64,000 nucleotides of DNA from Pseudoalteromonas luteoviolacea (GTDB lineage: Bacteria > Pseudomonadota > Gammaproteobacteria > Enterobacterales > Alteromonadaceae), in the NCBI RefSeq assembly GCF_018100925.1, contig NZ_JAGJEH010000006.1, positions 186,001-250,000 of the forward strand, written 5' to 3'. Position numbers and translations under genes: made by a program. Position 1 is the stretch's first letter. Every line of letters starts with the position of its first letter. Below, piece by piece: positions 5,836-32,506 of the stretch. A model generated the notes under the pieces. The model saw only the letters and a list, made by a program, of their open reading frames with translations. It ran no database searches and was not told where the DNA came from.

Positions 5836-6459
5836 ATGACAAAGACACGCGGTAACTTGTTTATTTTATCTGCCCCTTCAGGTGCTGGTAAATCTAGCCT
5901 CATCAAAGCTTTATTGGACAAACAAGCCAACATTAAAGTTTCAGTATCCCATACAACACGCTCCCCTCGTCCGGGAGAAAATAATGGTGAGCACTACCAC
6001 TTTGTCACAGTGGATGAATTTAAAACGTTGATCGATAAAGGGGACTTTTTTGAGTGGGCGCAAGTATTTGAGAACTACTATGGCACATCAAAACAGGCCA
6101 TTGAAGATCAACTAAACAATGGTATTGATGTTTTTCTAGACATCGACTGGCAAGGTGCAAGACAAGTTAGAACGCTTTTACCTGAAGTAAAAACAATATT
6201 TATTTTACCTCCTTCTCAAAGTGAACTGGAGCAGCGCTTAAACAATCGCGGCCAAGATTCTCAAGAAGTAATCGCATCAAGAATGGCCGAAGCAAAATCA
6301 GAAAGTAGTCATTACAACGAGTTTGACTATGTCATTGTCAACGACAATTTTGAGACTGCTTTAACAGAACTTGAGCACATCGTTGTTGCCGCGAGACTAC
6401 AAACTAAAGCACAACAAGTACGTCATCAGACCCTAATAACGGAACTGTTAGCAGAATAA
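5836..6459 (+). CDS. gmk: Guanylate kinase
   Basis: Phosphorylates GMP to GDP with ATP in the cytoplasm, an essential step of guanine nucleotide supply. The 207-residue length matches the family. The P-loop is APSGAGKSS (residues 13-21). The GMP-binding block follows with [11 protein letters not shown] and GEHYHFV, then [13 protein letters not shown] and [10 protein letters not shown]. It begins the gmk-rpoZ-spoT order found in enteric bacteria, which ties GMP supply to the ppGpp enzyme encoded downstream. About 120 bases separate it from rpoZ, enough for a separate promoter. Confidence 0.97.
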
Positions 6460-26921: not shown

Positions 26922-26963
26922 ATGAGCGCACAATGGGAAAACACGCAACAAAAACAAGTATAA
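26922..26963 (+). other. Short upstream open frame overlapping the kinase start
   Basis: ATG at 26922, with GAGG seven bases upstream, opens a 13-codon frame (MSAQWENTQQKQV, stop ending at 26963). The kinase ATG at 26933 lies inside it in another frame and has no separate ribosome site. It could couple or dampen kinase translation, or mark a frameshift in an originally longer kinase N-terminus. Confidence 0.35.
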
Positions 26964-28552
26964 GAAAAGTTTTGATAAGTGCTGTTATGTTAGTAACGGC
27001 TTTGTCGCTCTCACTTTCCATTTCAATCTCAACTTACCTCGATGTAAAAGAGCAGAAGAAACTGATTGTCAATAAGTTACAAATGATTGCGGAGATCATC
27101 GCATTTAACGCACAGATCACGCTGATTTTTGACGATAGAAAAACCGAAGAAAAACGGCTCAAATCGTTCAACAAGGTTGAACTGGTTAAAAATATCCATA
27201 TTTATGCCATTGATGATGTAACCAATAAACCTGTGTTTTTTACCAGCTATAACGCCAGCAAAACCCCCCCGGTTCCCCTCAAAGTCAATGAAATTGAAAC
27301 ACTTAAAAAGCCAAAAGTATCCACAGATTATGTCGAGCTAATCATTCCTGTCGAATACGAAGGGAAAATAGAAGGGTATGTTTATGTCAGAGGGGGCCTA
27401 GAGCGACTGTCTCAATATATCAACCAAAAAATACTCGTAGATATAGCGCTGACGTTAATTGTTCTTATCCTTGTACTATTTGTTGCCCGTGCCATTCAAA
27501 AGCGTATAGCCAACCCAATAGATTCCTTATCATTGCTGCTCCAAGACGTTTCTAAAAATCACAACTACTCAGCCCGAGCAACCAAAAGTGATATTGAAGA
27601 AGTTAACATGCTGGCTAATAACCTCAATATTATGCTCGCCCGTACGCAAAATCAGTTGGCACGTCATCAAGCTGACAAACTTGAAATAAAGCAACTGAAC
27701 CAAAACCTCGAAGAAAAGGTCAATCAGCGCACCATCGCTTTGCGCGAAGCCAACCAAGAGCTTCTCAACACCTTAGAGAGGATGCACCAGTATCAAAATC
27801 AAATTGTTGAGAATGAAAAAATGGCCTCATTGGGTCAAATGGTTGCCGGTGTTGCCCATGAAGTAAATACGCCTATCGGATTAGGGGTTACCGGCTCGAC
27901 TTTATTGAGAGACAAACTTGCAGATATCAACGCAGCTTTTGAGCAAAAAACCCTAACCTCAAAACAATTAGAACGTTTTATCCATGACGGCATTGAAAAC
28001 TTAGATCTCATTTATCGCAACCTCAATCGCGCGGCAGAGCTAATCTCCAGTTTCAAAAAGGTCGCAGTAAGCCAAGACGTCGAAGTAAGTTCCGAAGTAA
28101 ATATCAACAAGCTTTTCAGTGCAATTATTAGCAGTATGCGTGCTGAAATTGACATCAAGAATGTCACTTGGCAACTCTCTTGCCCAGAGCAGCTCACGGT
28201 TAGAACAAAAGCGGGACTCCTTCAACAAGTCTTTGAACAGCTGCTATCTAACTCACTCATCCACGGCTTTTTAGACCTAAAAGACAACCAAATAAGCATT
28301 CATGTTGAACAGCGTAGCCAATCCCTTGAGATTATTTACACAGACAATGGGGTGGGTGTATCAAATGCAATCAAAAAACGTATTTTCGACCCTTTTGTCA
28401 CCACAAAGCGTGGAGAAGGTGGCAGCGGGCTTGGCATGCATTTAGTTTACAATTTAATTACTCAAGCTTTAGGCGGCACTATAACGCTATCAGATGACAA
28501 TAAAAAAGGTACGGAATTTATTATAACTCTGCCTCTAAAAGGGGTAATTTAA
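26933..28552 (+). CDS. Sensor histidine kinase with CHASE8-like periplasmic domain
   Basis: A 539-residue membrane kinase. It has a first membrane helix near residues 11-33 (VLISAVMLVTALSLSLSISIS). A periplasmic region of about 125 residues has the CHASE8 pattern (QMIAEIIAFNAQITLIFDD, EKRLKSFNKVELVKNIHIYAID, EGYVYVRGGLERL). A second helix (ILVDIALTLIVLILVLFVARAI), HAMP and a coiled coil (NLEEKVNQRTIALREANQEL) follow. The phospho-acceptor box is MVAGVAHEVNTPIGLG (His near 309), and the HATPase_c domain has YTDNGVGVS, FDPFVTTKRGEGGSGLGMHLV and GGTITL. There is no receiver domain and no response regulator in the operon. The stop overlaps the YfiR-like ATG (TAATG), so the two are translationally coupled. 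CHASE8 is the periplasmic domain of YfiN, the diguanylate cyclase held off by YfiR. Confidence 0.85.
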   Translation: MGKHATKTSIRKVLISAVMLVTALSLSLSISISTYLDVKEQKKLIVNKLQMIAEIIAFNAQITLIFDDRKTEEKRLKSFNKVELVKNIHIYAIDDVTNKPVFFTSYNASKTPPVPLKVNEIETLKKPKVSTDYVELIIPVEYEGKIEGYVYVRGGLERLSQYINQKILVDIALTLIVLILVLFVARAIQKRIANPIDSLSLLLQDVSKNHNYSARATKSDIEEVNMLANNLNIMLARTQNQLARHQADKLEIKQLNQNLEEKVNQRTIALREANQELLNTLERMHQYQNQIVENEKMASLGQMVAGVAHEVNTPIGLGVTGSTLLRDKLADINAAFEQKTLTSKQLERFIHDGIENLDLIYRNLNRAAELISSFKKVAVSQDVEVSSEVNINKLFSAIISSMRAEIDIKNVTWQLSCPEQLTVRTKAGLLQQVFEQLLSNSLIHGFLDLKDNQISIHVEQRSQSLEIIYTDNGVGVSNAIKKRIFDPFVTTKRGEGGSGLGMHLVYNLITQALGGTITLSDDNKKGTEFIITLPLKGVI

Positions 28553-29079
28553 TGAAAATAATGTACCTAATAGCTGCATTTATTTTTATTTTTTGTAGTT
28601 TAAACGTTGACGCAAAATCACCACATGAAATTCGTTCCGCTTTTTTATATCAAATGGCTAAGCTAATCGATTTTCCGGAGCAAAAAAATAAACAAGTAAC
28701 CAGGTTTTGTTTTTATGATTTAAATCATGGTCCAGGCGCTATTTTAAATAAAAATAATAACTTAAAAATACGTGGTAAGCCTATAGATATAATAAAAGTG
28801 AATCTTTCTGACCCTTTTAGGGAACTTTCCAAGCGCTGTGATATCACATACATTGATGAAACAATGGAAGATGATATACTATCCTCTTGGACCGATACAA
28901 TTACCTTAAATATGGTGACTGTAGGCGAAAGTATCGAATTTTTGGAAGGGGGTGGGATTGCTTCCTTGGTCCAAGAAGGGAGTAAAATTCGGTTATATAT
29001 TAACAGACAAGAAGTTGCTCAACATAACTTTAAAGTGCTCTCTAGGCTACTCGCAGTTTCTAAGTTCTATCCTGACTGA
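28552..29079 (+). CDS. YfiR family (DUF4154) periplasmic protein
   Basis: A 175-residue exported protein with a signal peptide (MKIMYLIAAFIFIFCSLNVDAKS, cleavage likely after DAKS or VDA). The YfiR-family core follows: EIRSAFLYQMAKLIDFPE, then FCFYDLNHGP, LKIRGKPIDIIKV, CDITYID, a TVGESIEFLEGGGIASLVQEGSKIRLYINRQ block and the terminal LKVLSRLLAVSKFY-like helix. In Pseudomonas, YfiR is the redox-sensitive periplasmic repressor of the CHASE8-GGDEF protein YfiN. Here it overlaps a CHASE8 kinase by one base, so I infer it binds and controls the kinase. Three Cys are present (one in the signal peptide region, two in the mature part), compatible with redox sensing but not proving it. Confidence 0.85.
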   Translation: MKIMYLIAAFIFIFCSLNVDAKSPHEIRSAFLYQMAKLIDFPEQKNKQVTRFCFYDLNHGPGAILNKNNNLKIRGKPIDIIKVNLSDPFRELSKRCDITYIDETMEDDILSSWTDTITLNMVTVGESIEFLEGGGIASLVQEGSKIRLYINRQEVAQHNFKVLSRLLAVSKFYPD

Positions 29080-29186
29080 TTTTACTTGTTAACAATTGAA
29101 TATACTCCTATAATCGTTAACATTCGGTTTTATTATATAACACCGAAGTTTTTGTAAATAAAACATTCCGAAAAGGTTAATTAATA

Positions 29187-29912
29187 ATGCAAACGCCAGT
29201 CATTCTAATTGTTGAGGATGAAGACGTAACTCGACTGAACCTCGTTAGTTTATTTGAAGCCGAAGGTCATAAGGTAATTGAAGCCATTGATGGCGATGAT
29301 ATGCATGAAAAATTGACAGCAAACGACGATGTCAACTGTGTAATCATGGATATAAACCTTCCTGGTAGAAACGGCCTAATTTTGGCTCGTGAGTTACGCC
29401 AGAAAAAAAATGTAGGCTTAATTTTCTTAACAGGTCGTGACAACGATGTCGATAGAATCTTAGGTTTAGAGATCGGTGCAGACGACTACGTTACAAAACC
29501 GTTCAACCCACGTGAACTAACTATCCGTGTACGTAATCTTATTTCACGTACAGGATCAACACCTGAAGAGTCGACAATCGACAGCAACGGTGTGATCACG
29601 TTTAACGGGTGGGAATTAGACGAAAATAGTCGCTGTCTTACATCACCTACAGGTGAATCTAAACGCCTACCAAAAGGTGAATATAGAGCGCTACGCTTAA
29701 TGCTTGACTCTCCAGGTCGCATTTTCAGCCGTGAGCAGCTTATCAAGCATATGACGGGCCGTGAGCTTCGTGCAAATGACCGTACTGTAGACGTTACTAT
29801 CCGTCGTATTCGTAAGCACTTCGAGACTGACAGTAACACACCTGAGCTGATTAGTACTATCCACGGTGAAGGTTATCGCTTCATTGGTAAAATCGATAAC
29901 ACTCAACCATAG
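29187..29912 (+). CDS. arcA: Two-component response regulator ArcA
   Basis: The aerobic/anaerobic respiration regulator. Its 241 residues are very close to E. coli ArcA, including [19 protein letters not shown], the phospho-acceptor in [13 protein letters not shown] (Asp near 54), [32 protein letters not shown], and a C-terminal winged helix ([46 protein letters not shown]). It represses aerobic metabolism genes when phosphorylated through the ArcB phosphorelay. arcB lies convergent with its stop four bases away, unlike E. coli, where the two are far apart. Confidence 0.95.
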
Positions 29913-29913
29913 T

Positions 29914-29937
29914 TCGCTAAGAGCTTTCAGCGAGTTT
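29914..29937 (+). terminator. Possible arcA terminator inside the arcB 3' end
   Basis: TCGCT/AGCGA, a 5-bp stem with a ten-base loop followed by GTTTTG, starts two bases past the arcA stop and lies within the last codons of convergent arcB. Short and only plausible. Confidence 0.35.
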
Positions 29938-32244
29938 TGCAATTAATGAGTGAAGGGTTAACTGCCCTTCTCTTATTAATTCTTCCAATTCTGATATCCA
30001 CTGCTCACGCACCTCAACATCAACGGATTCACACTCAGTTTCCATTACCTTCGCGTGTTGCTGTACTAGTTTAAGTCCAACAGAGCCTGCTGCACCTTTT
30101 AATTTATGCGCCACAGAGCCGTACTCAGCCACATCATCATCACGGTTTGCGACAGTAAGCTCGTTACAGTACGTTGGGTTTAGTTTAGCGAATAATTCAC
30201 AGCTACGTTTAAAGGTATCAACGCCCATAGACGCCACAAAGTCCGTAATAGTTTCAATGTCGAGTAGATTGCGCTCTACCTCTAATACTTCTACCGTGTT
30301 TTGCTGAATCGCGCTTGCGTCTTCTTTAACACTATCAATGCCAAATAATTCAGCCAGCATCTTGTCTAGTTTGGTCGTATTAATTGGCTTTGCCAATGCG
30401 CCTTGAATGCTTATTCCTTGTAGTTCTTGCTCTGCGCTTCTGACATTTGCTGTCAAAGCAACAATTGGCAAAGCGTCAAAATGACTATCGTCACGAATTT
30501 GTCTAGCAACTTCGTCACCATTTAGATCAGGCAACTGCATATCAAGCAAAATAAGGTCAAGTTCATCCTCGGTTTGAACAAGGGACAATGCATCTTCACC
30601 TGTTTCAGCCCAAATCACTTCATGACCGCGCTGTTCAAGTAAATTTGTCGCAATTTCAGCATTTAGCGGAACATCTTCTACAAGTAATATGTATAAACCA
30701 CGACCGGCATAACTTTGTTGGTTAGGCGCACTGCAAAGTTCCAACGGGATCTCAACATCAAATCGACTTCCTTTACCTGGCATACTACTGACCGCTATAC
30801 GCCCTTTCATAGCTAACACCAGGGCCTTGGTCACCGCTAATCCGATCCCAGAACCGATGGCATTATTGCCTTCAGCATCAGGCGCCTTGTAGTACATATC
30901 AAAGATTTTATCTTGTTGCTCTGCTGAGATCCCCACCCCAGTATCAATAATGCTCATACTTAACCAAGCACCACTGTCGCGGTTTTCTCTACGGCACTCG
31001 AGAGTTACACAGCCACGGTGGGTAAATTTCACAGCATTATTGATAAGATTCCAGAGCACTTGACGTAAACGTGTAGGGTCAAGCAATGCGTAAACATCTA
31101 GCACACCTGAGCGTTGGATTTTGAACTCGAGGCCTTTTTGGCCTGCAATCAGATCAGAAAAGTTGACCACGTCATTGATAAAATCAGATACATTGATACT
31201 GTCCGTTGCTATATCTAGTTGCTCTCGGTCAATCTTATCCAGATCAATAATATCGTTAAAAATATTACCTAAGGTTTCAGCGCTGGAAAAAACCGTGTTG
31301 CACCAACTTTTTTGCTGCTGAGTGAGCTCGGTATCTAAAAGCATGCGTGTTAAACCGACAATGCCGTTAAGCGGCGTTCTAAGTTCGTGACTTAACGTGG
31401 CAATAAATTTCCCTTTGTCTTTATATGCAGTTTCTAATGCTTGCTCTGCTTCTTTACGGCTGGTGATATCACGACCAAACGCCAATAACCCGATATATTC
31501 GCCTTCATTATTAATAAAGGGCAACTTGCGCATCTCAAACCAGCGGTTTTCATCTTTAACAGGGTATTCTACATCCAACGAAATGGTTTGCTGAGTGGCA
31601 CTAACTTGGGCATCTGTCTCTAGTACTTTGGGCACGACCTGATCGACAAAAATCTCATCAGCAGTTTTACCAATTAAACCTTCGCTATCTTTCCCAATAA
31701 CTTGTTCAAACTTTTTATTACACCCAGCAAACACACCGTGTTCATCGCGGTAATAAAATAAATCAGGGGATGAATCAACAATTGAGCGCAACAACATGCT
31801 TTGCTGTGCAAGCTCTTGCTCAGCTTTACGACGTTCAGTTATTTCATTTCGCAGCTCTGCAATTGCACGGTGTTTTGCATGCAATGCCATTTTTCGTTCA
31901 TCTATTTCATTATTAAGCCGATTGATATTGTCTTTGAGTGTTTGGTTCAACAATTTTTCTTGTTGAGTAGCTGACTCTAAATACTCTTTCGAGCTCTCCA
32001 ATTGGCGAATAGCAAAAACAGCAACTGAGATAAGTAAAGGCGAAGTCAGTGCTGCAAATACAACAACAGACAATACATTTACCAAAGTGACTGATCCTAG
32101 TGCCACATAATAGAACATACAGGATAAAACCAATGACGCCACGAGCACCAGAACATAAGCAATTGCGCCAGCTTTGCGTTCACCGTATTTTCGAACCAAA
32201 TTAGAGAGAATTCGAGCCCAAGACCCAAACGAAGAATCAAGCAT
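29917..32244 (-). CDS. arcB: Aerobic respiration hybrid sensor kinase ArcB
   Basis: Partner of ArcA that senses the quinone redox state. Start set at MLDSSFGSWARIL (32244, 775 residues), where AAGGTGA gives a good ribosome site; the in-frame extension of 21 residues lacks one. Two membrane helices (about 24-45 and 54-76) are followed by a coiled coil, a PAS domain (SIVDSSPDLFYYRDEHGVFAGC), HisKA (FIATLSHELRTPLNGIVGL), HATPase (LWNLINNAVKFTHRG, DTGVGISAEQQDKIFDMYYKA, GSGIGLAVTKAL), a receiver domain (LLVEDVPLNAEIA, LILLDMQLPDLNG) and a C-terminal Hpt (YGSVAHKLKGAAGSVGL). All phosphorelay residues are present. The PAS domain shows the single redox-type Cys in FAGCNKK. It is a full tripartite ArcB, not the reduced kinase/HptA split known in Shewanella. 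Confidence 0.94.
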   Translation of the reverse strand: MLDSSFGSWARILSNLVRKYGERKAGAIAYVLVLVASLVLSCMFYYVALGSVTLVNVLSVVVFAALTSPLLISVAVFAIRQLESSKEYLESATQQEKLLNQTLKDNINRLNNEIDERKMALHAKHRAIAELRNEITERRKAEQELAQQSMLLRSIVDSSPDLFYYRDEHGVFAGCNKKFEQVIGKDSEGLIGKTADEIFVDQVVPKVLETDAQVSATQQTISLDVEYPVKDENRWFEMRKLPFINNEGEYIGLLAFGRDITSRKEAEQALETAYKDKGKFIATLSHELRTPLNGIVGLTRMLLDTELTQQQKSWCNTVFSSAETLGNIFNDIIDLDKIDREQLDIATDSINVSDFINDVVNFSDLIAGQKGLEFKIQRSGVLDVYALLDPTRLRQVLWNLINNAVKFTHRGCVTLECRRENRDSGAWLSMSIIDTGVGISAEQQDKIFDMYYKAPDAEGNNAIGSGIGLAVTKALVLAMKGRIAVSSMPGKGSRFDVEIPLELCSAPNQQSYAGRGLYILLVEDVPLNAEIATNLLEQRGHEVIWAETGEDALSLVQTEDELDLILLDMQLPDLNGDEVARQIRDDSHFDALPIVALTANVRSAEQELQGISIQGALAKPINTTKLDKMLAELFGIDSVKEDASAIQQNTVEVLEVERNLLDIETITDFVASMGVDTFKRSCELFAKLNPTYCNELTVANRDDDVAEYGSVAHKLKGAAGSVGLKLVQQHAKVMETECESVDVEVREQWISELEELIREGQLTLHSLIAKLAESS

Positions 32245-32506
32245 AATAATAGTCACCTTGTTAACCAGGCCATTATACCTCAGCTGAGCACATATGCGAG
32301 CGACCAAATAGTGTAACTTTGTTGAAAAAACTCAAACTTTTGAAAAAAGGCAGCGCTTGAGTAACCACACAAATAGTGTGATAACGTATCAAATAATGCA
32401 CACTCAATCTGTTTTTGTTTATTCTAATTAAGAATATCCACAGAAAAAAAACTCATTTTAGTGTAATATGAGAGCATTTTTGATGTCGTGATTAAAGAGA
32501 GTTTAA

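Follow-up and report, generated by a model that had tools for sequence, protein, structure and literature searches.

A YfiR-paired sensor histidine kinase at the arcA locus of Pseudoalteromonas luteoviolacea and a predicted docking residue that tracks yfiR

We analysed a sensor histidine kinase (HK) gene and the yfiR gene that directly follows it in Pseudoalteromonas luteoviolacea, on a stretch of 64,000 nucleotides (positions 186,001 to 250,000 of contig NZ_JAGJEH010000006.1, assembly GCF_018100925.1), the whole of which is called the window. The pair is a member, with an HK output, of the known YfiR-YfiN core module, and lies at an arcA locus where yfiR is repeatedly absent. Comparison of kinases with and without an adjacent yfiR makes it probable that YfiR regulates this kinase by docking at the site of Phe66 in its periplasmic sensor. 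The linkage of the kinase to the arcA locus, the tracking of yfiR by Phe66 and the retention of the kinase in a genus in which neither ArcA nor ArcB was found are new here. The architecture of the kinase, the homology with YfiN and YfiR, the conserved pairing, the lack of Phe66 in kinases without yfiR and the HK-arcA linkage can be read from the sequence.

The kinase, YfiR and the Phe66 site

The kinase frame (539 aa) and the YfiR frame (175 aa) share one base, the stop of the first and the start of the second reading TAATG. The HATPase_c and DUF4154 matches lie above the Pfam cut-offs, confirming the overlapping kinase and YfiR-family genes described in an earlier note made from the DNA letters. 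The elements of the pair are the following.

26933..28552, + strand: arcA-linked sensor histidine kinase, 539 aa, with a first transmembrane segment, a periplasmic PAS/CHASE8-like domain, a second transmembrane segment (TM2), HAMP, DHp and HATPase (profiles, AlphaFold2 (AF2) model, hhalign)
27023..27421, + strand: periplasmic PAS/CHASE8-like domain, about HK residues 31-163 (CHASE8 matches among orthologous sensor regions; PAS-type fold of the AF2 model)
27128..27130, + strand: codon of Phe66, the predicted YfiR docking residue, aligned to the Phe of YfiN AAVVF (alignment, co-variation with yfiR)
27494..27652, + strand: HAMP region, about HK residues 188-240 (Pfam HAMP in 65/91 sensor regions at E<=0.01, the window protein being below the cut-off)
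27803..28057, + strand: DHp region, about residues 291-375, with phospho-acceptor His309 (codon 27857-27859, HEVNTP); the most conserved kinase region
28058..28543, + strand: HATPase (CA) region, about residues 376-537 (Pfam HATPase_c)
28552..29079, + strand: YfiR/DUF4154 periplasmic protein, 175 aa (Pfam DUF4154 73 bits, cut-off 24.9; structure match)
28708..28710, + strand: codon of YfiR Cys53, invariant in 51/51 aligned YfiRs
28837..28839, + strand: codon of YfiR Cys96, invariant in 51/51 aligned YfiRs

The AAVVF motif of YfiN was implicated in YfiR binding by P. aeruginosa genetics (PMC3375315). In the hhalign alignment, HK residues 62-66 (ITLIF) are aligned to the AAVVF of E. coli YfiN, Phe66 corresponding to the Phe of the motif. 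Among 96 HK rows, taken from a family sample (147 genomes of the GTDB family) and from other genomes, Phe66 is present in 33/33 rows with yfiR versus 7/63 without; Pseudoalteromonas sp. MMG010 is counted twice among the 63, and a narrower alignment without six divergent rows holds 33 and 57. In the same way, Phe66 is found in the 54 Pseudoalteromonas loci that carry yfiR, and Asp in the one that does not, while in the genus g36 the two kinases with yfiR have Phe at position 66 and the two without it have Ser. Outside the arcA-linked kinases, 50 sensors whose genes adjoin yfiR but differ in output or gene order were examined; the equivalent position is Phe in 41 of the 41 that could be aligned (9 could not), as it is in E. 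coli YfiN.

A tree calculated from the cytoplasmic part only gave 6 independent pairs on well-supported branches, of which a mean of 5.8 agree and 0 disagree (sign test, median p 0.031, range 0.031-0.0625). In this phylogeny-controlled test position 66 ranks first of the 133 periplasmic positions and is followed by N59, from the same stretch; the Phe66 hypothesis had been taken from the published YfiN motif before the scan of all positions. Phe66 is thus kept with yfiR and mostly absent without it, which supports docking of YfiR on the kinase as on YfiN. The predicted docking is well supported by these sequences, and lineages where yfiR is absent usually lack Phe66 too.

The homology of the sensor with YfiN was seen by several methods. 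The NCBIfam DgcN/YfiN model matches HK residues 8-257 (7.6e-19, 68 bits versus a cut-off of 325), and the sensor alignment compared with E. coli DgcN gave an hhalign probability of 97.5 and an E of 7.8e-12. The CHASE8-like domain proposed in the earlier note stands on the strength of the orthologues: the window protein, with 22.9 bits and E 1.1e-4, is marginal and below the cut-off of 27, and 54/91 sensor regions (that of the window and 90 orthologues) match at E<=0.01, the best with E 1.8e-13, so that the domain call is upheld. The AF2 model of HK residues 1-246 (pLDDT 94.4) exhibits a PAS/Cache-type sensor, close to CitA (Z 11.2) and to the LapD-type 4u64 (Z 10.5). Because many PAS/Cache sensors tie near Z 10-11, the match names a fold and not a family; an integrative WalK-YycH model at the top of the list (Z 15.5) was not taken as kinship. 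Searches of the PDB with single window proteins gave nothing useful, and the sensor alignment returned mainly NarQ and other HAMP matches. On the output side, no GGDEF domain was matched on the HK with Pfam; it carries instead a HATPase_c domain of 77 bits, above the Pfam cut-off, HisKA and HAMP being below theirs. Positions conserved at >=95% amount to 31/85 in the DHp, 35/162 in the ATPase region and 3/133 in the periplasmic domain. The phospho-acceptor motif HEVNTP was read correctly in the earlier note, which set it against the common HELRTP; as an oddity it is rejected, since it is standard in the clade: 26/26 kinases of the family sample that precede yfiR carry it, and 28/52 fused relatives have HEINTP.

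YfiR is predicted to be exported from its N-terminal hydrophobic stretch. Its AlphaFold model (pLDDT 92.7) matches crystal structures of P. aeruginosa YfiR, among them 4yn7 (Foldseek E 7e-8, TM-score 0.74 by target length), and the alignment-based PDB search gave a weak YfiR match (E 0.0016). At the C-terminal hydrophobic patch of P. aeruginosa YfiR (Val160, Phe162, Leu183) the positions were read by eye, and a hydrophobic residue other than Phe seems to stand at Phe162. In our reading of the alignment, Cys53 and Cys96 would correspond to P. aeruginosa Cys71 and Cys110; no second Cys pair was seen in the YfiR alignment, a difference from the P. aeruginosa and E. coli systems. The sensor homologous to the N-terminal half of YfiN, the resemblance of the model to P. 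aeruginosa YfiR and the docking Phe that tracks yfiR bear out the earlier proposal of a YfiR/YfiN-type periplasmic switch.

We infer the physical binding, the sign of control, the redox cue and the output, and the pair would then work as a YfiR-gated sensor kinase. Exported YfiR would bind the first helix of the PAS/CHASE8 domain at its membrane-distal end, on the Phe66 stretch equivalent to the YfiN AAVVF site, and hold the kinase in one signalling state, probably a repressed one. YfiR would come off upon a change in the envelope, perhaps one of redox state sensed via the Cys53/Cys96 pair, and the HAMP-DHp-HATPase part would then switch. The kinase may in turn phosphorylate a response regulator whose gene lies elsewhere than in the pair, and ArcA is the best single candidate for this regulator.

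Besides the record of Phe66 and the homologies, the conserved pairing, the natural DUF4154-HK fusions and the divergence of the HK in the strain that lost yfiR, all described below, speak for this gated mechanism. Several observations weigh against it. The strict pairs test comprises six pairs only. The HK persists without an adjacent DUF4154 in 98 of the 122 arcA-linked genomes described below, so YfiR is dispensable for the role of the kinase. Two HKs of g28 (L324, L325) keep Phe66 with no DUF4154 match in their genomes, and L386, from another family, has Phe66 and no YfiR match within its short locus. For the redox part, PMC4655355 reports that it is Cys145-Cys152 of P. aeruginosa YfiR that is essential for folding and stability, and that Cys71-Cys110 was observed both reduced and oxidised. 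Seven Phe66 HKs in all stand without an adjacent yfiR, and four of them (L308, L309, L314, L320) belong to genomes with a DUF4154 elsewhere. One of these genomes, G020 (L309), has a lone yfiR (L183) at a distance from arcA; it is nearest to the kinase-type YfiRs in a quick tree and is perhaps the relocated partner of the kinase.

Linkage to arcA and distribution of yfiR

The end of yfiR is separated by 107 bases from the start of arcA, which is followed by arcB on the opposite strand; the NCBIfam matches agree with the earlier note on both genes. The elements downstream of the pair are as follows.

29086..29114, + strand: sigma-70-type promoter-like site TTGTTA-17-TATAAT before arcA (both hexamers conserved in 13/13 aligned Pseudoalteromonas yfiR-arcA gaps)
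29187..29912, + strand: arcA, encoding a response regulator that may be the output of the kinase (NCBIfam ArcA, 391 bits versus a cut-off of 334)
29917..32307, - strand: arcB, the known ArcA kinase, given for context (NCBIfam ArcB 845 bits, cut-off 838)

The argument for the promoter-like site is its conservation, as the stretch presents 5 such sites for a shuffled mean of 6.8, i.e. no excess; the site persists in the loss of yfiR as well. The interval from yfiR to arcA showed no terminator-like site. Thus arcA seems to own a promoter, and read-through from HK/yfiR is possible, not required. The promoter-like site overlaps GTTAAC repeats, which could be ArcA sites.

The closest named record is that of P. 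luteoviolacea NCIMB 1944 (L033), with identities of 99.8-100% for HK and 98.8% for RsmC. The gene order rsmC-HK-yfiR-arcA-arcB holds across 55 named Pseudoalteromonas loci, with the exceptions of L087, which has no yfiR, and L047, where arcB is beyond the contig end. yfiR directly follows HK in 54 of the 55; the frames overlap in 52, one locus has a 1-base gap, and in another the HK frame ends early. An order kept in 54/55 loci indicates that the pairing is not due to chance. The early end is that of Pseudoalteromonas sp. 0303 (L085 5001-6023), where the frame stops at 6023 by a frameshift, a stop or an assembly error.

With the best HK match taken per genome in the family sample, HK and arcA could both be placed in 122 genomes (47 genera), and in 122/122 the HK immediately precedes arcA in the same orientation. 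G010 (best E 1e-63) and G122 (best E 2.4e-59), whose HK matches were not placed, are outside the 122, and in G136 the HK and an ArcA fragment are on separate contigs. The earlier note had set arcA aside because ArcB is present beside it, and so missed this constant adjacency. yfiR is found between HK and arcA in 24/122 genomes (9 genera) and no DUF4154 lies between them in 98/122 (40 genera), which makes YfiR an optional part of the locus. In an order-wide sample the HK was found at E<=1e-80 in 19/247 genomes, 17 of the 19 being in the family. Of the two others, L384 has the HK upstream of arcA (ArcA 64% identical) and L386 no arcA in its short locus. After HK and arcA, L384 (3-1291) carries on the opposite strand the last part of a gene encoding an Hpt domain, perhaps arcB, although it has no ArcB match.

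The tree of 96 HKs requires at least 10 changes of yfiR state, 7 of them forced by well-supported branches. As yfiR, when present, sits at the same place after HK, repeated loss is the simplest explanation, although some of the changes may be gains, and yfiR seems to have been lost repeatedly from arcA-linked kinase loci. In Pseudoalteromonas sp. MMG010 (L087), which has lost yfiR, the HK is 55% identical to that of the window, whereas the HKs of its nearer relatives reach 69-74%. Its ArcA (88%), ArcB (71%) and RsmC (56%) are at the level of those relatives. The faster change of this HK, a single case, is spread over the whole kinase and is greatest in TM2 and HAMP. MMG010 retains one other DUF4154, at the position of the GGDEF-linked one of G098 (L019). 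We found no published account of an arcA-linked kinase with repeated yfiR absence in a literature search that is weak on subscription journals.

How often DUF4154 genes stand next to kinases rather than GGDEF proteins, a question raised in the earlier note, was answered by a survey of the family sample, of which 94 genomes have DUF4154, with 147 matches in all. The domain profiles used were built from the loci themselves, not from Pfam, and 19/147 loci were unclassified or cut by the locus end. Kinases accompany 98/147 matches (53 DUF4154-HK fusions, 24 HK-yfiR-arcA, 2 HK-yfiR without arcA and 19 yfiR-HK) and GGDEF proteins 30/147 (28 yfiR-GGDEF pairs and 2 DUF4154-GGDEF fusions), so kinase output is the commoner one in this family. 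The fusion of the switch to a kinase output, proposed in the earlier note, is therefore probably right and is not new. According to Malone et al. 2012 (PMC3375315), sensor histidine kinases are among the outputs that stand in for the GGDEF domain of YfiN in divergent systems, and the coupling is curated in NCBIfam (NF053592/NF053591).

Two other arrangements were observed in this survey. In 9/53 DUF4154-HK fusions (L025, L026, L030, L031, L091, L096, L101, L108, L140) a REC-REC-GGDEF regulator gene is directly upstream, and a route from YfiR to kinase to cyclic di-GMP (c-di-GMP) is possible there. Additionally, 17/28 yfiR-GGDEF pairs are preceded by a same-strand gene of 330-370 aa (L007, L010, L011, L013, L014, L017, L024 and others). 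The one examined (L010) matches Phenol_MetA_deg at 24.6, slightly above the cut-off of 22; this is a family of outer-membrane channels, and these genes are perhaps outer-membrane partners that replace YfiB.

Output of the kinase

ArcA as the main output of the kinase is a tentative assignment, which we hold to be somewhat less probable than not. The HK could possibly act on ArcA, in addition to ArcB, as a second kinase (or phosphatase) that senses the periplasm, YfiR being an optional modulator in some genera; this view is compatible with docking at Phe66. The same-strand adjacency in the 122 genomes, and in the other-family genome L384, speaks for it. In the 24 loci with HK, yfiR and arcA, what surrounds this trio changes from locus to locus: the rsmC or the glgA side lies upstream, and the arcB or the pmbA side downstream. 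By our own count of 30 arcA loci, arcA is followed by pmbA in 16, by an ArcB-like kinase in 3 and by another gene in 11. Shewanella ArcA has also been tied to envelope functions. On the other hand, glgA is the next upstream gene in 9/30 arcA loci where HK is absent (own count); this fairly stable glgA side means that the adjacency of HK and arcA could be gene-order inertia. The apparent promoter of arcA itself, the 18 genomes with ArcA but no HK match at E<=1e-35, and the ArcB match in 24/24 genomes with the trio also count against it. That last result led us to reject the HK as a stand-in for a missing ArcB: 22 of the 24 are above 838 bits, and the two below are G022 (803 bits) and G064 (606 bits, where the arcB frame next to arcA is shorter and 76% identical), the ArcB of G086 being cut by the contig end and yet above the cut-off.

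A further objection comes from the genus g36. All four sampled genomes keep the HK, and in none was ArcA found (best matches 34-40% identical) or ArcB (no match, or <=332 bits versus 838). Of the 102 positions conserved in 90 arcA-linked HKs, 2 are changed in at least three of the four g36 kinases. With the phosphotransfer domain near-unchanged in a genus without ArcA/ArcB, ArcA is a candidate, not a proven partner. The high conservation of the DHp suggests an unchanging partner without naming which; as a proof of the ArcA partner it was rejected, the DHp being nearly unchanged in g36. The g36 HK loci have the rsmC/glgA side upstream and the folE2 side downstream. From the kinase locus to folE2 (L356, L357, L218, L221), two have nothing and two a gene of 606-614 aa, the 614-aa one without a Pfam match.

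It is unlikely that the output is instead c-di-GMP, made by an orphan response-regulator diguanylate cyclase encoded elsewhere in the genome. The REC-REC-GGDEF regulator upstream of 9/53 fused genes points in this direction, and the genome of the window has at least 2 REC-REC-GGDEF genes without an adjacent kinase gene (L235 3001-4236; L236 4680-5972), but most of the fused kinases fall in a clade of their own, in which other residues follow the phospho-acceptor His. That yfiR and HK are mere neighbours, YfiR acting on another membrane protein and HK sensing alone, is very improbable: an HK without adjacent DUF4154 is the common state (98/122), but the searches of the genome of the window turned up only one DUF4154 and one CHASE8-like protein, namely this pair, so no YfiN was found on which YfiR could act, and Phe66 tracks the presence of yfiR.

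Returning to the YfiR-gated kinase with ArcA as its candidate partner, it is conceivable, though we lean slightly against it, that an old arcA-locus kinase gives the Arc respiratory regulon a periplasmic (envelope/redox) input besides that of ArcB across most of the sampled family. YfiR would be a detachable brake, its loss recorded in one residue of the kinase, and lineages would have switched between YfiR-gated and YfiR-free sensing. Should ArcA indeed be the output, this textbook regulator of respiration would have an unrecognised envelope-sensing input in a large, mostly marine group. The YfiR docking site had been proposed on the basis of P. aeruginosa genetics and modelling; the repeated natural absence of yfiR offers an independent test at the sequence level, which supports the site and extends it to kinases.

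Comparison with known systems

The ArcS/HptA-ArcA system of Shewanella oneidensis is similar in that a kinase other than ArcB acts on ArcA, provided that the assignment to ArcA is right. It differs in that ArcB is present in the genome of the window; ArcS reportedly has a different sensor and no YfiR. Among curated families, NF053592 (HK_near_YfiR_like) describes the same pairing and is the best NCBIfam match of the HK, with 104 bits versus a cut-off of 194, and NF053591 (TOL_0243 family YfiR-like, YfiR_like_TOL0243) is the best match of YfiR, with 49 bits versus 125. Both scores being under the cut-offs, the window proteins are outside these families.

With P. aeruginosa YfiBNR and E. coli YfiR-DgcN-YfiB, the pair shares a homologous sensor half and YfiR, whereas its output is a histidine kinase and not GGDEF, and its neighbours are rsmC and arcA, not yfiB. 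The closest likeness is to the YfiR-YfiN[PAS/HAMP] core module as set out in PMC3375315: a DUF4154 protein with a PAS/CHASE8-HAMP membrane protein, no adjacent yfiB, as in many divergent systems, and kinase outputs already listed there. The docking Phe is kept (ITLIF). In contrast to this module, the kinase gene here precedes yfiR, the pair lies at the arcA locus, and most loci retain the kinase but lack yfiR.

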